From Bacteroidaceae bacterium (lineage in GTDB: Bacteria; Bacteroidota; Bacteroidia; Bacteroidales; Bacteroidaceae): a DNA stretch of 64,000 nt. Location of the stretch: the NCBI GenBank assembly GCA_017503645.1, contig JAFVSR010000018.1, positions 25,231 through 89,230 on the forward strand. The letters are read 5' to 3'. The notes beneath the pieces are model-generated. The model did no database searches and was not told the origin of the DNA. It saw only the letters and a program-made list of their open reading frames with translations. Shown piece after piece: positions 2,589 to 38,361 of this stretch; position 1 is the first letter of the stretch; each line of letters begins with the position of its first letter. Made by a program: the position numbers and the translations under genes.

Positions 2589-3188
2589 TCAGCTATGTCT
2601 GTCGGCGAGCTCGCGCTCCATATCCTGCAATGTGAAACCCATCTGCTCGTTGAGCACCAAAAGGTGATAGACAAGGTCGCAAGCCTCGTACAGGTAACGC
2701 TCCTTGTTGCCATCAATGGCCTCAATTACAGTTTCCACAGCCTCTTCGCCCACCTTTTGCGCAATCTTGTTCACGCCCTTGTTGAACAGGTGAGTGGTAT
2801 ATGAACCCTCGGGCATAGCGGCGTGGCGGCCCTGAATAACCTTCTCGAGCTTACGTATGAAGCCCTCGGTCTCGGGAGTGTCGAAACAGGCTGTAGTGCC
2901 ACGGTGACAGGCAGGGCCGTAAGGCTTGCCCATAATGAGTAGCGTGTCGTTGTCACAGTCGGGGTACATCTGCACCACCTCAATGAAATTGCCACTTGTT
3001 TCACCCTTTGTCCACAGAGCATTGCGCGAACGGCTGTAGAACGTAGCCTTGCCGGTCTCCACTGTTTTTTCAAATGCCTCACGGTTCATATAAGCAACCA
3101 TAAGCACTTTCAATGTAGCGCAGTCCTGCACCACCACAGGCAGCAGGCCATCGCTGTTCTTTGATAAATCGAAATCGGAAAAATTCAT
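2589..3188 (-). CDS. hisIE: Bifunctional phosphoribosyl-AMP cyclohydrolase / phosphoribosyl-ATP pyrophosphatase
   Basis: Catalyses steps 2 and 3 of histidine synthesis: hydrolysis of PR-ATP to PR-AMP (HisE part) and ring opening of PR-AMP (HisI part). Of 199 residues, about 1-105 are HisI, with MLMVAYMNREAF-like opening, RNALWTKGETSGN and the zinc-site residues in DCDNDTLL and GPACHRGTTACF. About 110-199 are HisE, with KGVNKIAQKVGEEAVETVIEA and EACDLVYHLLVL. Length is typical of the fusion. It is separated from hisF by about 235 nt holding palindromic repeats, the only real gap inside the operon. Confidence 0.97.
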   Translation of the reverse strand: MNFSDFDLSKNSDGLLPVVVQDCATLKVLMVAYMNREAFEKTVETGKATFYSRSRNALWTKGETSGNFIEVVQMYPDCDNDTLLIMGKPYGPACHRGTTACFDTPETEGFIRKLEKVIQGRHAAMPEGSYTTHLFNKGVNKIAQKVGEEAVETVIEAIDGNKERYLYEACDLVYHLLVLNEQMGFTLQDMERELADRHS

Positions 3189-3423: not shown

Positions 3424-4179
3424 TTACAATCTTACCTTGATATTCTGTTTCTGCAACTCCCTTTTAAGCGCCTCCACGGTAATTTCGCCATAGTGGAAGA
3501 TACTTGCAGCCAGTGCCGCATCGGCCTTGCCTTTGGAAAGCACATCGGCAATATCGCCCACGCAGCCTGCACCACCCGATGCAATTATGGGGATGGAGAG
3601 CTCCGATGCCAGAGCAGCAAAAGTGTCGCAAGGATAGCCGTTGCGCGTGCCGTCGTGGTCCATAGAGGTGAAAAGTATCTCACCGGCGCCACGCTCCTGC
3701 CCCTCACGAGCCCACGAAAAGAGCTCCTTGTCGGTGAGTTGGCGGCCACCGTGAGTGGTTATGCGCCATACACCGTCAATCTGCTTGGCATCTACCGCAA
3801 GCACCACAAACTGGCTGCCATACTTCGATGCAATCTCGTCTATCAACTGCGGGTTGCGCACCGCCGCACTGTTAATGGAAATTTTGTCGGCACCGGCATC
3901 GAGCAGGCGGGCGGCATCCTCAATGGTGGATATTCCGCCACCCACGGTAAAGGGGATGTTTATGTTGGATGCAATGCGCTCCACAAGCGAGGTGAATGTA
4001 TTGCGCCCCTCCACGGTGGCACTTATATCAAGATAGACAAGTTCGTCGGCACCCTGGCGGGCATACATACGGCCCAGTTCCACGGCATCGCCCACATCTT
4101 GCAGGCTCAGAAAATTTATACCCTTAACGGTGCGCCCCTCTTTCACGTCGAGGCAGGGAATTATTCGTTTTGCAACCAT
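3424..4179 (-). CDS. hisF: Imidazole glycerol phosphate synthase cyclase subunit
   Basis: TIM-barrel cyclase that joins PRFAR with ammonia delivered by HisH to give imidazole glycerol phosphate and AICAR. The 251-residue product opens MVAKRIIPCLDVKEGRTVKG, with catalytic Asp in CLDVKEG. The second catalytic Asp is in SMDHDGT (about residue 130). Phosphate-binding turns are FTVGGGIS and IIASGGAGCVGD. Length is normal. Its start overlaps the end of hisA by 19 nt, implying translational coupling. Confidence 0.97.
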   Translation of the reverse strand: MVAKRIIPCLDVKEGRTVKGINFLSLQDVGDAVELGRMYARQGADELVYLDISATVEGRNTFTSLVERIASNINIPFTVGGGISTIEDAARLLDAGADKISINSAAVRNPQLIDEIASKYGSQFVVLAVDAKQIDGVWRITTHGGRQLTDKELFSWAREGQERGAGEILFTSMDHDGTRNGYPCDTFAALASELSIPIIASGGAGCVGDIADVLSKGKADAALAASIFHYGEITVEALKRELQKQNIKVRL

Positions 4180-4886
4180 AGCTCCAAATCTTTAAGGGTT
4201 ATGCGGCCTTCATAAATAGCCTTGCCAATGATTACACTATGCAAGCCCAGTTCGTGAGCCTTGCGAATATCATCCATAGAACTTATGCCGCCACTCAACG
4301 TGGTATCCACGGTGGGGAAATTATCATTCAGCTCCACATATAGCGGGAAATTGGGCCCCTGCAGCATACCATCCTTGGAAATATCTGTACAAATAAGCTG
4401 CTTGAGACCAAAGGGCAGGAACCACCCTATTATCTCGTCGATGCTTACCTGCGACTCTTTGAGCCAACCGTGAGTAGCCACATTGCGGCCACGCACATCG
4501 GCACCCAGTATAACGTGCCCGGCACCATAGTTCTGCAACCAATCGGCAAAGAGTTCTCTGTTATCCACCGCCACACTGCCGCAGATAACCCTGTTGGCAC
4601 CCGCGTTCAGCGCCGCACGCAGCGCATCGGTACTTTTAATGCCGCCACCCCACTCTATGTCGAGATTGGTGTTTGTGGCAAGCTGTTCAAGCACGCGCAG
4701 ATTGCAAGGTTCCTTGGCCTTTGCGCCGTCGAGGTCCACGACGTGCAAGCGACGTACACCGCAGTCTGCATACATTTTGGCCATATCCACAGGATTCTGC
4801 TCATACACTTTTTTGATGTCGTAATCGCCCTGTGTGAGGCGCACACAGCGCCCATCTATCAAATCTATTGCAGGAATCAGTTCCAT
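4161..4886 (-). CDS. hisA: Phosphoribosylformimino-5-aminoimidazole carboxamide ribotide isomerase
   Basis: Amadori-type isomerase (ProFAR to PRFAR), a TIM-barrel paralogue of HisF. The 241-residue product begins MELIPAIDLIDGRCVRLTQG, with catalytic Asp in AIDLIDG. The second catalytic Asp lies in CTDISKDGM (about 128-136). The phosphate sites are IEWGGGIKS and LSGGISSMDD. The stop codon of hisH and this ATG share one base (TAATG), so the two are translationally coupled. Confidence 0.97.
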   Translation of the reverse strand: MELIPAIDLIDGRCVRLTQGDYDIKKVYEQNPVDMAKMYADCGVRRLHVVDLDGAKAKEPCNLRVLEQLATNTNLDIEWGGGIKSTDALRAALNAGANRVICGSVAVDNRELFADWLQNYGAGHVILGADVRGRNVATHGWLKESQVSIDEIIGWFLPFGLKQLICTDISKDGMLQGPNFPLYVELNDNFPTVDTTLSGGISSMDDIRKAHELGLHSVIIGKAIYEGRITLKDLELWLQNE

Positions 4887-5476
4887 TACAATTCAATAAA
4901 ATTTTTCAATATACACTCTCCCACGGCACCGCTCTTCTCGGGGTGGAACTGCGCACCGTAGAAATTGTCCTTGTTTATTGCAGCTGCAAACTCACGCCCA
5001 TTGCACGATGTGGCAATGGTGCCGTCGCATACATCGGCTGCAAACGAGTGAACGAAATAGACAAAAGCACCCTCGTCAATGCCCTTGAAGAGCGGTGATT
5101 GCAGATTGCGAATCTCGTTCCAGCCCATATGAGGCACCTTCACTCCATCGGCGGGCGACGGTGTGAAACGGCGCACCTCGGCATCAAAGATACCCAGGCA
5201 GCGGGCGTTGCCCTCCTCGCTGCTGCAGCACATCAATTGCATACCTATGCATATACCAAGCACAGGCTGTTTAAGCCCCTTGATGACGTCGCACAAGCCG
5301 CGCTCGCTCAATTTCTGCATAGCCGACGAAGCCTCGCCCACACCGGGCAACAGCACCCTGTCGGCATTCCTTATAATATCGTGGTTGTCGGTAACGCAAT
5401 ATTCGGCCCCAATGCGGTCGAGCGCATTGCACACCGAGCGCAGGTTACCGGTATCATAATCTACTATAGCTATCAT
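4886..5476 (-). CDS. hisH: Imidazole glycerol phosphate synthase glutamine amidotransferase subunit
   Basis: Class I glutamine amidotransferase that supplies ammonia to HisF. Its 196 residues include the opening IVDYDTGNLRSV, the nucleophile elbow LGICIGMQLM (catalytic Cys), and the His/Glu pair in FHPEKSG near the C-terminus. VPHMGWNEI is the usual block before the final catalytic part. It overlaps hisB by 4 nt and hisA by 1 nt. Confidence 0.97.
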   Translation of the reverse strand: MIAIVDYDTGNLRSVCNALDRIGAEYCVTDNHDIIRNADRVLLPGVGEASSAMQKLSERGLCDVIKGLKQPVLGICIGMQLMCCSSEEGNARCLGIFDAEVRRFTPSPADGVKVPHMGWNEIRNLQSPLFKGIDEGAFVYFVHSFAADVCDGTIATSCNGREFAAAINKDNFYGAQFHPEKSGAVGECILKNFIEL

Positions 5477-6597
5477 AAAACCCCCTTGCTGCTTGGCAGT
5501 TCGTAACTGAATGGTTCGCGCTTCACCGCCATACGCAGTGCACGCGCAAACGCCTTGAATATTCCCTCGGCAATATGGTGGTTATTTTCACCCTGCGCCT
5601 TTATGTGAAGGTTGCACCCCATAGCCGCAGCCAGCGACTTAAAGAAGTGGCTGAACATCTCGGTGGGAACATCGCCCACATACTCACGCGTAAAGGTGAC
5701 ATCCCAACAGAAATCTATTCGGCCACCAAAATCAATGAGCACCATAGCGCGGCTCTCGTCCATAGGCAACACAAAGCCATAACGGCCTATGCCTCGTTTG
5801 TTGCCGAGTGCCTTAACCACCGCCTCGCCCAATACTATGGCAATATCTTCCATAGTGTGATGCTCGTCAACGGAAAGGTCGCCCACGGCTTTCACCTGCA
5901 ACGACACACCCGCGTGATGCACTATCTGGTCGAGCATATGGTCGAGGAATTTAAGCCCTGTGTCTATGCCCGATGTGCCACGGCCATCGAGGTCGATGCT
6001 CACCGTTATATCGGTCTCCTTTGTTTTGCGCACCACTGTGGCAGTGCGCTCCTCGCAACGGAGGAACTCGGCAATGGTGGCCCAGCTGTCGGTGGCAAGC
6101 ACGCACACATCGGCATAGGGCAAGGCGCGCATCTCCTCTATACGTACCTTGTCGGCAGTGTAGAGGATAGCCTTTGCACCAAGATTCTTGGCAAGCTCCA
6201 CATCGGTGAGGCGGTCGCCAATGACAAAACAGCACGACAAGTCGTACTCGCCCGTCATATATTTGCCAAACATACCCGTGCCCGGCTTGCGGGTGGGTTG
6301 GTTGTCGCTCTTATACGTAACGTCTATAAGCTGGTCGGCAAATTCAATACCCTCGCCTGCAAGCACCTGCAACATCTTGTTGTGCACAATGTCGAATTGC
6401 TCGCGCGGGTAGGCATCGGTGCCCAAACCATCCTGGTTGCTTGCAAGCACAAGTTCGAAATCGCTCTCGGCTATGCGTGCAAGCGAGCCTATTGCACCCG
6501 GCATAAAGACAAGCTGCTCCAGCGTATCCACCTGCTCGGTCACAGGCGGTTCCCATATAATTGTTCCGTCGCGGTCTATAAAAAGTGCCTTTTTCAT
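5473..6597 (-). CDS. hisB: Bifunctional histidinol-phosphatase / imidazoleglycerol-phosphate dehydratase
   Basis: Two-domain enzyme for the dehydration of imidazole glycerol phosphate and, later, dephosphorylation of histidinol phosphate. Residues 1 to about 165 are a HAD phosphatase (FIDRDGTIIWEPP with the Asp nucleophile; SNQDGLGT; FVIGDRLTDVELA). About 180-374 are the dehydratase, with its metal-binding His motifs DEHHTMEDIAI, LDHMLDQIVHHAG and NNHHIAEGIFKAFARAL. At 374 residues the length matches the enterobacterial/Bacteroidetes fusion. It overlaps hisC and hisH by 4 nt each. Confidence 0.97.
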   Translation of the reverse strand: MKKALFIDRDGTIIWEPPVTEQVDTLEQLVFMPGAIGSLARIAESDFELVLASNQDGLGTDAYPREQFDIVHNKMLQVLAGEGIEFADQLIDVTYKSDNQPTRKPGTGMFGKYMTGEYDLSCCFVIGDRLTDVELAKNLGAKAILYTADKVRIEEMRALPYADVCVLATDSWATIAEFLRCEERTATVVRKTKETDITVSIDLDGRGTSGIDTGLKFLDHMLDQIVHHAGVSLQVKAVGDLSVDEHHTMEDIAIVLGEAVVKALGNKRGIGRYGFVLPMDESRAMVLIDFGGRIDFCWDVTFTREYVGDVPTEMFSHFFKSLAAAMGCNLHIKAQGENNHHIAEGIFKAFARALRMAVKREPFSYELPSSKGVL

Positions 6598-7637
6598 TTT
6601 CCAAAATCTTTTACCACGGCAAGCATACTGTCATTCTCGCCCGGTGTACCTATTGTAATTCTCAAACACTCGCTGCAACCCTTTACTTTTGAACGGTCGC
6701 GCACGATAACCTCGCGGGCTATAAGCGCATCGTAGAGGGCACGCGCATTGCTCACCCTCACAAGCAGGAAATTGGCATCGGAGGGGAACACCTTTTCAAC
6801 ACAGGGCATCTGCTGCAGCGCCGCGGCCACACGGGCACGCTCGCTCACAATGAGCTCTATCTCGCCCTGCACATCGCGGTCGAGCAACTCCATTGCACGC
6901 ATCATACCCGCCTTGTTTATGTTATAGGGGTATTTAACGTTGGCAAACAGTGCCATCACCTCCTTTGCGGCAAATGCCAGCCCCAGGCGCAAGCCCGCAA
7001 GGCCATAAGCCTTGGAGAGGGTTTGCAGAACAATGAGGTTCTTGTACTCGCCAAGCAGGGTTGTGAGGCTTGGTTGCGAGGCAAAATCTATGTATGCTTC
7101 ATCCACCACAAGCACCCCCTTGAAATTGTCGAGCAGATATCGCATCTGCTCAATGGGGAATATATTGCCCGAAGGGTTGTTGGGCGAGCACACAAACATC
7201 AGTTTGGTATTCTCGTCGCAAGCGGCAAGCAGTTCATTGGCAGGCAGGGAGAAATCGCCGCCCAACTGCACCTCGCGCACTTCGACATCATTTATGTCGG
7301 CCGCCACGCGGTACATACCATAGCTGGGTGCAATGGCCACCACGTTGTCTATGCGCGGTTCGCAGAAGATGCGAAAGCAGAGGTCTATTGCCTCGTCGCT
7401 GCCGTTACCTATGAACATCTGCTCCACTGCCACACCCTTCACAGGCGCAATGCGGGCCTTCAGCTCGGACTGACGAGGATCGGGGTAGCGGTTGAAGCCG
7501 TTGTCAAAAGGATTTTCGTTGGCATCGAGGAAAACTCCCAATGCCCCTTTATACTCGTCGCGCGCTGTGGAATAGGGCGCAAGCGACTTTATATTTTTGC
7601 GGACAAGCCGCATTACATCGTCGATATTCATAATCAT
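6594..7637 (-). CDS. hisC: Histidinol-phosphate aminotransferase
   Basis: PLP enzyme converting imidazole acetol phosphate and glutamate to histidinol phosphate and 2-oxoglutarate. In 347 residues it shows class I/II aminotransferase landmarks: NENPFDNGFNRYPDP (substrate loop), IGNGSDEAIDL, CSPNNPSGN, VDEAYIDF and the PLP lysine block LQTLSKAYGLAGLRLG. Two closely spaced starts (MI and M3) are possible; the first is used because it overlaps the hisD stop by 4 nt as elsewhere in this operon. Confidence 0.96.
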   Translation of the reverse strand: MIMNIDDVMRLVRKNIKSLAPYSTARDEYKGALGVFLDANENPFDNGFNRYPDPRQSELKARIAPVKGVAVEQMFIGNGSDEAIDLCFRIFCEPRIDNVVAIAPSYGMYRVAADINDVEVREVQLGGDFSLPANELLAACDENTKLMFVCSPNNPSGNIFPIEQMRYLLDNFKGVLVVDEAYIDFASQPSLTTLLGEYKNLIVLQTLSKAYGLAGLRLGLAFAAKEVMALFANVKYPYNINKAGMMRAMELLDRDVQGEIELIVSERARVAAALQQMPCVEKVFPSDANFLLVRVSNARALYDALIAREVIVRDRSKVKGCSECLRITIGTPGENDSMLAVVKDFGK

Positions 7638-8917
7638 ATTTCTTTACCCATACGCAAAAGGGCAGCCGCAGCGTGAGCATCGAGACCTTCGGCCTTCGCC
7701 ATAGCAACGATGGTGTCGCCAAGTTCGTCTATACCCTCTTTTGTAAGTTCTTGATATGTTATTTTGCGCACAAAACTATCGAGGTTCACACCGCTGCAAG
7801 AGCGCGCCCAGCCACTCGTAGGCAGTGTATGGTTGGTACCCGATGCATAGTCGCCGGCACTCTCGGGCGAGTAGTTGCCTATGAACACGCTGCCCGATGC
7901 GGTTATTTTGTCGGCCACTTCCCACGGATTATCCATTGATATAATCAAGTGCTCGGGCGCGTAGCTGTTTACAAAAGCCACCTGCTCCTCAACCGTGGGC
8001 AGAACTATTGTGCGACTATTTTCCAAAGCCTTTGCGGCAAGTTCCTTGCGAGGCAGCTTTGCAAGCTGTTCTGCCACACAGGCATCAACGGCATCGGCAA
8101 TGGCAGTGCTGCCACACACAAGTATAGCCTGCGAATCGGTGCCGTGCTCGGCCTGGGAAAGAAGGTCGCTTGCCACAAATGCAGGGCAGGCTGTATCATC
8201 GGCCATCACAAGCACTTCCGAGGGGCCCGCAGGCATATCTATCGACACTCTGTATGTAACGCGCTCCTTGGCCTTCGTCACATAACGGTTGCCCGGCCCG
8301 AATATCTTATCCACTGCGGGAATGCTCTCGGTGCCGTATGCCATAGCAGCCACAGCCTGCGCACCACCTACCTTGAATATTCTATCCACACCGCACACCA
8401 TAGCGGCCGAAAGCACCGCGGAGGCCACCTTGCCCTGCTTGTTCACAGGTGTGCAAAGCACTATCTCCTTGCAACCCGCCACCTTTGCAGGAATGGCAAG
8501 CATAAGCACAGTAGAGAAAAGGGGCGCTGTGCCACCCGGGACATAAAGCCCCACTTTTTGAATGGGCACGGCGCGCTGCACACATTTTACCCCGGGCGAT
8601 GTAACCACCTCGATATCATTGAAGCGCTGCGCCATATGAAAACGTGTGATGTTGCGGGCAGCCTTTGCAATGGCATCCTTCAAATCCTGTGGCACAAGAG
8701 CAAAAGCCTCGCGTTTCTCCTCCTCGCTTACCTCAATGGCAGCAAGTTCCACACCGTCAATCTCGCGGGCAAGCTCGCAGATAGCCTTGTCGCCATCGCG
8801 CCTCACACGCTCAATTATGGCATCTACACGTGCGGCAATTACCGCATCGTCGGTAACCACGCGCTCACACAGCGCGCCCCATTCACTGCGGGCAGGGTTT
8901 ATATATCGTTTTATCAT
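7634..8917 (-). CDS. hisD: Histidinol dehydrogenase
   Basis: Zinc enzyme that oxidises histidinol to histidine in two NAD-dependent steps. I start it at MIKRYINPARSEW (427 residues), not at the longer upstream frame. This ATG overlaps the hisG stop as ATGA, and the product then has the usual HisD length. Landmarks: VPGGTAPLFSTVLML, the dinucleotide/active-site stretch FGPGNRYVTKAK, MPAGPSEVLV, SQAEHGTDSQA with the zinc/catalytic region, and YAPEHLII followed by GNYSPESAGDYASG with the catalytic Glu-His region. Tightly coupled to hisG and hisC. Confidence 0.97.
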   Translation of the reverse strand: MIKRYINPARSEWGALCERVVTDDAVIAARVDAIIERVRRDGDKAICELAREIDGVELAAIEVSEEEKREAFALVPQDLKDAIAKAARNITRFHMAQRFNDIEVVTSPGVKCVQRAVPIQKVGLYVPGGTAPLFSTVLMLAIPAKVAGCKEIVLCTPVNKQGKVASAVLSAAMVCGVDRIFKVGGAQAVAAMAYGTESIPAVDKIFGPGNRYVTKAKERVTYRVSIDMPAGPSEVLVMADDTACPAFVASDLLSQAEHGTDSQAILVCGSTAIADAVDACVAEQLAKLPRKELAAKALENSRTIVLPTVEEQVAFVNSYAPEHLIISMDNPWEVADKITASGSVFIGNYSPESAGDYASGTNHTLPTSGWARSCSGVNLDSFVRKITYQELTKEGIDELGDTIVAMAKAEGLDAHAAAALLRMGKEI

Positions 8918-9765
8918 AATACAATCTTTTCGAGAGCCAACACCAGAATATCCTCGGCACCAATAGCCTTCAACTGCTCTATCACACTCCATAGTTGCTT
9001 TTCATCAACCACCGTTTGCAACGAGCACCAATCCTTTTGCGCAAGAGGAATAACCGTTGGGCTGCGCATTGCGGGAAGAATCTTCACAGCCTCGTCGAGC
9101 GCTGCGGTGGGGATATTGAGCAACAAATACTTTTTACCCGCACCCTTAAGTACCGATTCGAAGCGCGACACCAACTGGCGTGCAATGGCCATCTTCTCCT
9201 CGCTCAGGCCCGGGGTACCAATGAGCACCGCCTCGGAGTGAAGCACCTGTTCCACCTCCACAAGACCGTTTGTAATGAGCGTGCCGCCCGACGACACAAT
9301 ATCAAAAATGGCATCGGCAAGCCCCGCTGCGGGAGCAATCTCCACCGAACCTGTAATGGTGTGAATTTCGGCCTTTATACCATTCTCCTCAAAATACTTT
9401 GTAAGCACATTGGGGTACGATGTGGCAATACGCTTGCCGTTGAAATAACCAAGCCCTTCATAAGCATCGGTCTTGGGAATGGCAAGCGAAATGCGGCAAC
9501 CGCCAAACCCGAGTTTTTGCAGTATATCAACATCGTAGCCACGCTCGGCCACCTCGTTGTAACCCACAATACCCAAATCGGCAGCACCCATCGACACCGT
9601 TTGCGGAATATCATCGTCGCGCAAAAAGAGAATCTCCACAGGGAAATCCGATGCACGCATCAAAAACTTTCTCTTTTCCTCTTTAATGGTAACGCCCGCA
9701 TCGCGCAGCAGCTGCATACTCTGCTCGTTCAAGCGCCCTTTTGTCTGTACAGCAATTCTCAGCAT
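8914..9765 (-). CDS. hisG: ATP phosphoribosyltransferase, long form
   Basis: First committed step of histidine synthesis (ATP + PRPP to PR-ATP), usually feedback-inhibited by histidine. The 283-residue product opens MLRIAVQTKGRLNEQSM, and the PRPP-binding loop is in DAIFDIVSSGGTLITNGL (about 165-183). Residues from about 205 form an extra C-terminal ACT-like regulatory domain (LLLNIPTAALDEAVKILP), which marks the HisZ-independent long form. First structural gene of the operon; about 370 nt of leader RNA with an attenuator precede it. Confidence 0.96.
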   Translation of the reverse strand: MLRIAVQTKGRLNEQSMQLLRDAGVTIKEEKRKFLMRASDFPVEILFLRDDDIPQTVSMGAADLGIVGYNEVAERGYDVDILQKLGFGGCRISLAIPKTDAYEGLGYFNGKRIATSYPNVLTKYFEENGIKAEIHTITGSVEIAPAAGLADAIFDIVSSGGTLITNGLVEVEQVLHSEAVLIGTPGLSEEKMAIARQLVSRFESVLKGAGKKYLLLNIPTAALDEAVKILPAMRSPTVIPLAQKDWCSLQTVVDEKQLWSVIEQLKAIGAEDILVLALEKIVL

Positions 9766-9815
9766 ATAATTATTGTTTTATTTTAAGGAATAAATTCTTG
9801 CACCAAATGTTGCAA

Positions 9816-9890
9816 TGTCATCTCGAGCGTACGCGAGAGATCTATACACCCTCGTTGAGATTTCTCCTCCTAACAGTCGTCGAAATGACA
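9816..9890. repeat. Palindromic REP-like element in the his leader
   Basis: Imperfect inverted repeat with ends TGTCATCTCGA and TCGAAATGACA, internally carrying CTCGAGCGTACGCGAGAGAT. It ends in the same TGTCAT sense as the repeat between hisF and hisIE, so the two are probably one dispersed family. It lies between the attenuator terminator and the hisG start codon. Confidence 0.65.
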
Positions 9891-9928
9891 ATTTGATACA
9901 ATTTTACATCTATTCTTGTTATTATTTC

Positions 9929-10011
9929 AAAAAAAATAAAAAGAGCTCACCATTCTTGCAGGTAAGCTCATAGATTATAGCGTTCGCAAAACGGGAACAC
10001 CCCACTTACCC
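9929..10011 (-). promoter_or_regulatory. his operon transcription attenuator (terminator and competing antiterminator)
   Basis: On the minus strand GAGCTTACC (9969-9961) pairs with GGTGAGCTC (9951-9943) around a 9-nt loop, with one G-U pair, followed by TTTTTATTTTTTTT (9942-9929): a rho-independent terminator. Upstream GGTAAGT (10010-10004) can pair instead with GCTTACC (9967-9961), which would destroy the terminator. GTGGGGTG next to it can pair with the CACCACC of the leader-peptide His codons. This gives the 1:2, 2:3, 3:4 arrangement of amino-acid attenuators. Ribosome stalling at His codons is expected to free segment 2 and allow hisG transcription. Confidence 0.85.
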
Positions 10012-10065
10012 AACTCTTTTTTGAGACAGGCGATGATGGTGGTGATATACGTTTTGTGCAAACAT
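10006..10065 (-). CDS. hisL: his operon leader peptide with four consecutive histidines
   Basis: A 19-residue open frame, MFAQNVYHHHHRLSQKRVG, ending in TAA. Codons 8-11 are CAC CAC CAT CAT. It starts about 73 nt after the predicted transcription start and ends 37 nt before the terminator stem, overlapping the antiterminator segment. A four-His run immediately upstream of a terminator in front of hisG is the signature of ribosome-mediated attenuation known from enterobacterial hisL. The peptide sequence itself is unlike the enterobacterial one apart from the His run. Confidence 0.88.
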   Translation of the reverse strand: MFAQNVYHHHHRLSQKRVG

Positions 10066-10144
10066 TCTCTATCTGTTTTTTATTTTGTTACCCTAACAAC
10101 GCCGGCTGCTCACATTTTGCAACCTATATTGCGTTTTCACATCG

Positions 10145-10152
10145 CGAAGATA
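10145..10152 (-). promoter_or_regulatory. -7 element of the his operon promoter
   Basis: TATCTTCG on the minus strand, the same variant seen before several other genes here. It sits about 80 nt before the leader-peptide ATG, just downstream of the cysE terminator. The -33 region (TTTAT at the right spacing) is weak. Confidence 0.6.
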
Positions 10153-10178
10153 GTAAATTTTACAATACTTCATAAACA

Positions 10179-10221
10179 TTTGTACACTTTTTTCGCCATT
10201 GCGCCGAAAAAAGTGTACAAA
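10179..10221. terminator. Hairpin terminator after cysE
   Basis: Perfect 17-bp arms (TTTGTACACTTTTTTCG / its complement, 10179-10195 and 10205-10221) with a 9-nt loop, starting 13 nt beyond the cysE stop codon. It separates the cysteine operon from the his promoter. Confidence 0.75.
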
Positions 10222-10234
10222 CAGGTTTCAATGG

Positions 10235-11116
10235 TTATTTCCTCTGCACTATGTGTGCCCCTGCGGGAACGTTCTCGGTAACCCAAATGTTACCGCCTAT
10301 CACCGCATCGCGGCCCACTGTTACCCGCCCAAGAATGGTGGCGTTGCTATACACAATGACATTGTCCTCCAATATCGGGTGGCGGGGAATACCCTTTATG
10401 GGGTTGCCGTTCTCGTCGAGCGGGAAACTCTTAGCACCTAATGTAACTCCTTGATATAGCTTCACGTTGTTGCCTATGATACAGGTTTCTCCTATAACTA
10501 TACCGGTGCCGTGGTCTATTGTAAAATAGTCGCCTATCTGCGCACCCGGGTGGATATCTATGCCCGTTTCGCTATGGGCTATTTCGGTAATGATGCGGGG
10601 AATAAGAGGCACGCCAAGTTCCAAAAGGCGGTGTGCCATACGATAGTTGCTCACGGCCTTTATGCTGGGGTAGCAGCTGATGACCTCGCCAAAGCCTGTG
10701 GCCGCGGGGTCGCCGTTGTATGTAGCCTCCACATCCTTGGCAAGGGCGGCACGCAGCGCGGGCAGATACTCAATGAACGAGAGTGCCATTTTGCTTGCCG
10801 CGGCGGCCGCCGTGGCGGGGCTGTCGCAATTATTGCTGTAACAGAGCCCGGCACATATCTGCTCGCACAAGATTTTGTACAGGCGGTCTATGTTCATACC
10901 TGTTTTGTATGCAAGGGTGTGGTGCTCCTGCACCGAGTCGCCAAAGTATCCGGGGAACACAATGGCACGCACAATATCCACAGCCTCGGACAACACGCGC
11001 CACGAAGGCATAGGCTCGCCATCGCGGCGATGGTGGAACATATCTTGGGAACCGCCGCTGCTCAGCAATTCGTCTATAGTATGCGAGAAGACGTCGGCAA
11101 TAGTTTTTTCTTTCAT
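10235..11116 (-). CDS. cysE: Serine O-acetyltransferase
   Basis: Transfers acetyl from acetyl-CoA to L-serine, giving O-acetylserine for CysK. The 293-residue product has a long helical N-terminal half (about 1-170) and a left-handed beta-helix of hexapeptide repeats (about 175-290). Recognisable blocks are IHPGAQIGDYFTIDHGTGIVIGE (catalytic His in DHGTG), YQGVTLGAKSF and HPILEDNVIVYSNATILG. Last gene of the six-gene operon, 6 nt after cysK. The extended N-terminus resembles the EpsC/plant-type rather than the short bacillar form. Confidence 0.95.
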   Translation of the reverse strand: MKEKTIADVFSHTIDELLSSGGSQDMFHHRRDGEPMPSWRVLSEAVDIVRAIVFPGYFGDSVQEHHTLAYKTGMNIDRLYKILCEQICAGLCYSNNCDSPATAAAAASKMALSFIEYLPALRAALAKDVEATYNGDPAATGFGEVISCYPSIKAVSNYRMAHRLLELGVPLIPRIITEIAHSETGIDIHPGAQIGDYFTIDHGTGIVIGETCIIGNNVKLYQGVTLGAKSFPLDENGNPIKGIPRHPILEDNVIVYSNATILGRVTVGRDAVIGGNIWVTENVPAGAHIVQRK

Positions 11117-38092: not shown

Positions 38093-38149
38093 ATAAACAA
38101 GGGTTAGCAAGCCTTCACCCGAGGCATTGTTAATACTCACATAATAGAT

Positions 38150-38320
38150 AAGAGGCAGGTTTTCTGGCTTGTCCGCCCTTGCGGTTACCTTCCCACCCCA
38201 CCGGGGGCAGTGGCAATAGATTACCGAGGCATAAATGGACTTACAGCTACGGGTATAGCTCCGGATTTCAACCGGATTCCCTTTTACTAACACCACCGAA
38301 AGGGGTGGCTGTTACACCTT
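38150..38320 (-). promoter_or_regulatory. Cobalamin riboswitch upstream of btuB
   Basis: On the minus strand the conserved core reads GGAATCCGGTTGAAATCCGG, then GAGCTATACCCGTAGCTGTA, GCCACTG, GGGAAGG and finally the B12 box AGCCAGAAAACCTGCC (38169-38154). All are in the order of the AdoCbl riboswitch class. About 60 nt separate it from the btuB ATG. In that interval a hairpin with arms AACAA/TTGTT and GGGT/ACCC (about 38131-38097) ends just before the start codon. It could serve as expression platform by hiding the ribosome-binding region. Confidence 0.95.
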
Positions 38321-38330
38321 TATCCGAGTG

Positions 38331-38361
38331 CGAAGATATAGCTATTGAAAATCTTATGCAA
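38331..38361 (-). promoter_or_regulatory. Promoter of the btuB-btuG unit
   Basis: TTG (38361-38359), 20-nt spacer, TATCTTCG (38338-38331) on the minus strand. Transcription would start about 38324, giving a leader of about 230 nt that contains the riboswitch. Confidence 0.75.

Follow-up and report, generated by a model that had tools for sequence, protein, structure and literature searches.

His leaders have been described in other phyla (PMC2965389, PMC9413887), including the his attenuators of Firmicutes in the Bacillus cereus group, the Eubacteriales, and the Erysipelotrichales (PMC9413887), and the His leader is listed as RF00514 (PMC3766115). Within the Bacteroidota, passages of a 2021 study of Flavobacterium psychrophilum give leader-peptide clues upstream of amino acid operons and a new structured element upstream of hisG that had no Rfam matches (PMC9723704). 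Bacteroid-trp has been tabulated (PMC2864571) and noted upstream of the trp operon of F. psychrophilum (PMC6414381). Leader-like short frames are mentioned for Bacteroides thetaiotaomicron in passages that do not name his (PMC7366714), and leader genes have been counted by distance in groups that include the Bacteroidetes (PMC4833913). A search of the titles, abstracts, and passages of open-licence papers yielded no description of a his leader in the Bacteroidales. Vitreschak et al. 2004 (FEMS Microbiol Lett 234:357) reportedly may mention attenuators of the Bacteroidetes/Chlorobi in their abstract, and priority could lie there.

Here, we analyzed a 64,000-nucleotide stretch of DNA (the window) from a Bacteroidaceae bacterium, in which a first-pass annotation had proposed a leader-peptide attenuator in front of the his operon. 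Conservation, covariation, and computed folding support this reading, and we put the probability that the his operon is under the control of a ribosome-mediated transcription attenuator at about 92%. The claim that such leaders are usually overlooked fits our Rfam results, as no family matched the leader or 20 related loci. Only subthreshold matches, at E values up to 5, were obtained around the leader. The proteobacterial His leader model RF00514 had no match in the window, around the leader (E up to 5), or in the 20 related loci, and RF01692 (Bacteroid-trp) had none in the window or in the window's genome.

Anatomy of the his leader and its operon

The window lies within an assembly of 108 contigs. 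A profile search showed that the his operon on the minus strand (9765 to 2589) is complete, with the gene order hisG-D-C-B-H-A-F-IE. Its first gene, hisG (8914..9765; TIGR00070 and TIGR03455, above cut-off), is followed on the same strand by hisD (open frame 7634..8992, with the true start probably inside; TIGR00069), hisC (6594..7637; TIGR01141), a bifunctional hisB (5473..6597; NF003937), hisH (4886..5476; TIGR01855), hisA (4161..4886; TIGR00007), hisF (3424..4179; TIGR00735), and hisIE (2589..3188; NF002747). The nearest named record among the matches listed, a Bacteroidaceae bacterium MAG from sheep rectum, has a HisG that is 99% identical. The upstream neighbor is cysE (10235-11116), encoded on the same strand as the leader, and the long inverted repeat that separates it from the his leader (10178-10222) is likely a terminator. 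Elsewhere in the window, a Cobalamin riboswitch was found at 38137-38336 on the minus strand (91.6 bits).

In a letter-by-letter check of the window, all of the elements named in the first-pass annotation were located on the minus strand with base-exact positions. The 19-codon frame with four consecutive His codons is present as MFAQNVYHHHHRLSQKRVG, running from the ATG at 10065 to the TAA at 10006 (10006..10065). Its regulatory His codons, CAC CAC CAT CAT (10033..10044), lie within strand 1, as judged from the letters and the consensus fold. Strand 2, GGTAAGT (10004..10010), has the stop codon inside it and pairs either with strand 3, forming the antiterminator, or with the His-codon region. 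Strand 3 is the 5′ arm of the terminator, GAGCTTACC (9961..9969), and strand 4 is its 3′ arm, GGTGAGCTC (9943..9951), both assigned from the terminator fold and covariation. Together they form the 9-bp stem that had been claimed (9969-9943), with one G-U pair and a loop of 9, and the T-run TTTTTATTTTTTTT follows directly (9929..9942). Both strands of the claimed antiterminator are also in place, GGTAAGT at 10010-10004 facing GCTTACC at 9967-9961. The alternative partner of strand 2 had been said to overlap the His codons, and it does include them, but the long 5′ stem also uses earlier codons.

The features by which a his attenuator is recognized were found as follows: a short frame with a cognate His codon run before the first structural gene, an intrinsic terminator between this frame and hisG, an antiterminator that excludes the terminator (though not clearly above shuffles in the wide alignment), a protective strand-2 helix overlapping the regulatory codons (with a narrower test negative), and the cognate biosynthetic operon downstream. 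A simple scan for sigma-70 promoters and terminators, using E. coli-type hexamers and a loop limit of 8, returned 0 terminators at the leader, probably because the actual loop is 9.

The promoter had been described as standing in the right order and spacing. A candidate −7 box, TATCTTCG (10145..10152, minus strand), does lie upstream, but it is weak, has one mismatch to the Bacteroidota TAnnTTTG, and starts 87 nt before the ATG; the same box occurs in the related loci L002 to L005 at −83 to −93. Of the 66 leaders recovered in the conservation scan (see below), 53 had a full TAnnTTTG in the 130 nt preceding the ATG, compared with 115 of 1320 shuffles, and in 23 of those 53 it was 25-28 nt before the ATG. 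The window's clade has TATCTTCG farther upstream in place of the full motif. Shine-Dalgarno-like 5-mers were rare, preceding 2 of the 66 leader ATGs versus 177 of 3300 shuffles, and the stretch before the ATGs was 47% A.

The gap between the terminator and hisG contains a repeat-like insertion at 9795..9900 (minus strand), outside the switch, which was recognized from the spacing and from partial copies in the genome. The distance from the terminator end to hisG is 177 nt in L001/L002 versus 36 nt in L003/L004, and seven partial copies of the insertion, 28-45 nt long and 78-89% identical, were found elsewhere in the genome. A sequence resembling it, as judged by eye, is also located upstream of the genome's own leuA (L255).

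The computed folds were compared with shuffled sequences. Folding energies were −13.5 kcal/mol for the terminator stem alone (z = −4.85) and −29.9 for the 84-nt segment containing the His codons and strand 2 (z = −4.05), and none of 200 shuffles equaled either value. Taken by itself, the region of the window running from strand 2 to strand 3 was unexceptional (−12.0; z = −0.84; 32 of 200 shuffles as good). The entire 146-nt leader folded with a z of −3.99.

Conservation upstream of hisG

We scanned 106 of 110 hisG-upstream regions, leaving out L031 and L032, whose upstream sequences were identical to those of earlier loci, and L039 and L042, which were too short, and used 530 dinucleotide shuffles as controls. 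A His-rich short frame was present in 70 of the 106 distinct regions versus 17 of the 530 shuffles, and a His-rich frame followed by a hairpin and a T-run in 66 versus 2, with the close relatives L001-L004 and L008, L009 each counted at full weight. The alignment of relatives that had been proposed as a check thus came out in favor of the attenuator: the His run, the terminator, and the competing antiterminator are kept while the peptide and the surrounding sequence change. The leader peptides vary freely (e.g., MIIQTVHHHHHHHSLTTARG or MTLRLSYRLHHHHIYGI), with the His run constant.

Record titles of the loci that have the leader with terminator include Rikenellaceae, Alistipes, Phocaeicola, Bacteroides, and Dysgonomonas, among others. 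The scan was failed by 40 of the 106 regions, comprising 22 Prevotella-type records and 18 others. Within the best 80 listed, the leader with terminator was found in 0 of the 22 loci titled Prevotella, Prevotellaceae, or Xylanibacter (range L063-L109), and these 22 loci offer a natural contrast to the leader-bearing Bacteroidales.

Within the window's genus, HisG was present in 17 of 37 genomes, including the window's own, and 15 of these 17 hisG loci passed the scan. The two exceptions were L016, which has the frame and fails the scan, and L015, which lacks a dense His run; nonetheless, three spaced His codons can be read in a short frame within the upstream sequence of L015. Five loci of the genus (L006, L007, L013, L014, and L017) have a different terminator core, GCGGAAGCC or a similar one, and retain the His leader; by eye, their antiterminator appears to use the side of the hairpin loop. 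More distant loci were sampled phylum-wide as the best 29 of 102 matching genomes other than the window's own, a sample skewed to nearer relatives, and a His-rich frame was found in 26 of the 29 and a frame with a terminator in 20. Nine of these 20 distant leaders use a different stem built on CCCGTTTGA.

Pairing segments and computed switching

Covariation of the pairing segments, which the first-pass annotation had also put forward as a check, was evident in the terminator pairs and in the fit of the antiterminator to its own partner, but antiterminator covariation was not clear in the wide alignment. A strand-3 core like GCTTRCC, with its complement in strand 4, was present in 57 of the 66 leaders, and the other nine loci carry another strand-3 sequence. 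Strand 2 is mostly a GGTRRGY-like 7-mer similar to strand 4. For the wide alignment (A3), 23 of the 66 leaders were selected because they have an evident shared core, and the pairing rate is therefore a biased estimate; 99.5% of its terminator cells pair, which is partly expected since the leaders were selected for a hairpin. Both sides of the terminator had changed in 24 cells of this alignment, compared with a shuffle mean of 6.0 and with 0 of 500 shuffles as high. The antiterminator pairs in A3 were not clearly above shuffles, either in pairing (84.8% versus 83.7%; 89 of 500) or in covariation (63 of 500).

The genus-level alignment (A2) holds 14 of the 17 genus hisG loci, leaving out L002, which is nearly identical to L001, and L015 and L016, which failed the scan. 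Here, the antiterminator pairs beat the shuffles on two measures (4 and 8 of 500), and pairs with both sides changed were not above shuffles (262 of 500). Over all 66 loci, strand 2 and strand 3 scored 16.04 with their own arms versus 14.22 with foreign arms, with 0 of 5000 permutations as high. All seven antiterminator pairs form in 46 of 57 loci when strand 2 is picked for best pairing. The stop codon itself contributes to the antiterminator in roughly one-third of the his switches: 17 of 53 loci (9 TAA and 8 TAG) have it within strand 2 at an identical register, strand 2 beginning 5 nt upstream of where the stop codon ends. In the remaining loci of the 53, strand 2 starts 0-12 nt past the stop in 25 and earlier in 11.

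The 5′ structure had a mean z of −1.81 in the 66 loci versus −0.92 in upstream control segments, and its z was below −2 in 30 of the 66 leaders versus 13 of the 66 controls. An unguided consensus fold of the 14 genus leaders gave three helices. The first joins the first His codon and the nucleotides preceding it with the region past strand 2, the second joins the His codons with strand 2 through three pairs (92.9% of cells pair), and the third is the terminator, with several compensating changes. In a short-helix test of the His codons against strand 2 in the 53 loci with at least six pairs, own partners scored 10.87, foreign partners 11.18, and shuffled strand 2 11.13, and 4604 of 5000 permutations were as high. 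Folding and the consensus fold thus support the predicted helix between strand 2 and the His-codon region, with the short-helix test negative.

To compute switching, we folded the RNA as far as strand 3 and allowed no pairing within a ribosome footprint, for the 57 of 66 loci with the strand-3 core. The footprint size is an approximation, and the values are equilibrium probabilities rather than kinetics. The mean antiterminator probability was 0.098 in the free state and 0.062 in a shuffled-middle control, and it rose to 0.644 with the first His codon in the A-site and 0.737 with the second; at the stop codon, where the mask covers strand 2 partly by construction, it was 0.037. The corresponding values for the window were 0.00 (free), 0.20 (first His), 0.92 (second His), and 0.00 (stop). 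A stall on the second His codon raised the probability above the free state in 54 of the 57 loci, and three showed no rise. The maximum of the mean probability along the peptide, 0.78, fell two to three codons inside the His run; the mean then stayed at 0.68 or higher until six codons past the start of the run and was 0.03 at ten.

This pattern is consistent with the following mechanism. Transcription would begin upstream of 10065, and a ribosome would trail the polymerase into the 19-codon leader. When charged His-tRNA is plentiful, the ribosome would reach the TAA inside strand 2 and cover that strand, so that strand 3 would be free for strand 4, the terminator would form, and transcription would stop at the T-run. 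Under a shortage of charged His-tRNA, the ribosome would stall on the His codons and cover strand 1; the released strand 2 would pair with strand 3 (GGTAAGT/GCTTACC), block the terminator, and allow read-through into the operon. If the leader were not translated, the 5′ stem would hold strand 2, and the terminator would be expected to win.

The computed release is broader than the His run. One codon before the run, the mean antiterminator probability was already 0.61, and averaged over the preceding codons it was 0.49; in the window, a ribosome stalled on any of the four codons that follow the run likewise releases strand 2 (0.78-0.97). These values would suit a leader that senses general translation or another amino acid, with the His codons serving only as a pairing sequence for strand 2, as would the pairing of these codons with strand 2 in the consensus fold. 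We consider such a sensor very unlikely, as in-frame His runs persist amid very different flanks, the mean antiterminator probability tops out on the His run, and cognate codons appear in other leaders, Trp before trpE and Leu/Ile/Val before leuA (see below). Since the release is broader than the run, the specificity for His must come from the codons and not from the fold.

A T-box, a riboswitch, or a protein-controlled terminator in place of a translated leader is less probable again. The alternative hairpin pairs could be driven by a ligand, and 9 of the 66 loci have the other strand-3 sequence mentioned above; yet no Rfam family exceeded its gathering score at the leader or in the 20 related loci, for which an Rfam-type riboswitch or T-box was dropped, and the in-frame His run has no role in such models.

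The position of cysE upstream on the same strand would allow the hairpin to be its ordinary terminator and the His run to be an accident, but we give this scarcely any credence, since cysE already has its own inverted repeat at 10178-10222 ahead of the leader's candidate promoter, on which ground a cysE terminator was dropped, and since both the recurrence of leader and hairpin upstream of hisG (66 of 106 regions versus 2 of 530 shuffles) and the uniqueness of the design within the genome led us to reject a chance His run. Four consecutive CAY codons occur at 25 sites in the window's genome (15 for the reversed pattern), and the his leader is the sole one of the 25 that lies in a short frame followed by a terminator; two other sites with hairpin matches sit in open frames of 89 and 79 codons.

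Trp and Leu leaders and comparison with known systems

Leaders of the same kind as the proposed his attenuator were found upstream of other amino acid genes. The his terminator-core pattern occurred in 13 of 99 genomes of the order, and the reversed pattern in 0. Without one repeat-rich genome, 12 pattern sites were left: 6 precede hisG, 4 belong to trpE leaders that encode WWW peptides, and the other 2 fit neither description; these four trpE leaders share the terminator core GGCTTRCC/GGYRRGCC with the his leaders. In genome G075 (L117, L128, L130-L144), 30 matches (13 forward, 17 reverse) to GGCTTRCC-n-GGYRRGCCTTTT are spread over many contigs; many are palindromes counted on both strands, and they may be a repeat or terminator family.

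Of 28 Bacteroidales loci examined upstream of trpE-like genes, 17 (L206, L209, L210, L212, L214, L223, and 11 more) had a Trp-run leader with a terminator, versus 0 of 280 shuffles; the sample comprised 28 of 30 loci, with no match over that family's cut-off in 60 genomes. One of them, L223 (genome G042, also L121), has tandem WWW frames before a single trpE, at −367 (MNTNRLNNYWWWQFTYSFYREEGKLS) and −204 (MNNSNLHIWWWHNSGIKP), and both frames have a hairpin and T-run of their own downstream. Upstream of leuA, a Leu/Ile/Val-rich leader with a terminator was found in 12 of 28 loci (28 of 30 sampled) versus 2 of 280 shuffles. These include L247, L251, L252, L253, and 8 more, with Leu/Ile-rich frames such as MFTSLLLGLIINILWKNPAEVRPLCA and terminators. 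In the window's genome, our filter found no leader at its own leuA (L255), and there was no match to trpE.

The his, trp, and leu leaders point to a wider use of attenuators in the order rather than a single case. It seems fairly likely that the Bacteroidota, in which the leaders examined here almost lack Shine-Dalgarno-like motifs, generally use leader-peptide attenuation for amino acid genes (his, trp, and leu), and such general use would require close ribosome-polymerase coupling in this phylum. Ribosome-mediated attenuation needs a ribosome that keeps pace with the polymerase, and the Bacteroidota make little use of Shine-Dalgarno initiation. The wide conservation of the leaders is therefore indirect evidence for coupling in the Bacteroidota. 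For the his operon of many gut Bacteroidales, the leader provides a concrete candidate regulator, without an Rfam family in what was tested.

With the proteobacterial his leader (RF00514), the locus shares a His-codon peptide, a terminator, and an antiterminator before the his operon, i.e., the same logic (PMC9413887). It differs in giving no match to the RF00514 model and in having the stop codon inside strand 2, and its family carries Bacteroidota −7 boxes and has few Shine-Dalgarno-like 5-mers (2/66). The Firmicutes his attenuators, as described, likewise have three to five His codons in a row and a terminator and antiterminator before his operons (PMC9413887), although they belong to another phylum and are likened here by description, not at the sequence level.

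Bacteroid-trp (RF01692) is also a leader attenuator of the Bacteroidota (PMC2864571, PMC6414381), and in four loci (L111-L114) a hairpin comes after a short FWWW-containing frame. It differs from the his leader in its Trp codons and in having another terminator sequence. The F. psychrophilum element shares both phylum and gene with the window's leader, and the main-text passages on it name no peptide or pairing segments (PMC9723704), whereas the leaders reported here are from the Bacteroidales and come with peptides, alternative stems, and covariation. With leader-peptide clues and a hisG element already reported for Flavobacterium (PMC9723704), the principle was already hinted at in the phylum. 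What is new here is the breadth of the his leader, its covariation, its absence with its terminator from the 22 examined Prevotella-type loci, and the similar Trp and Leu leaders in the order.
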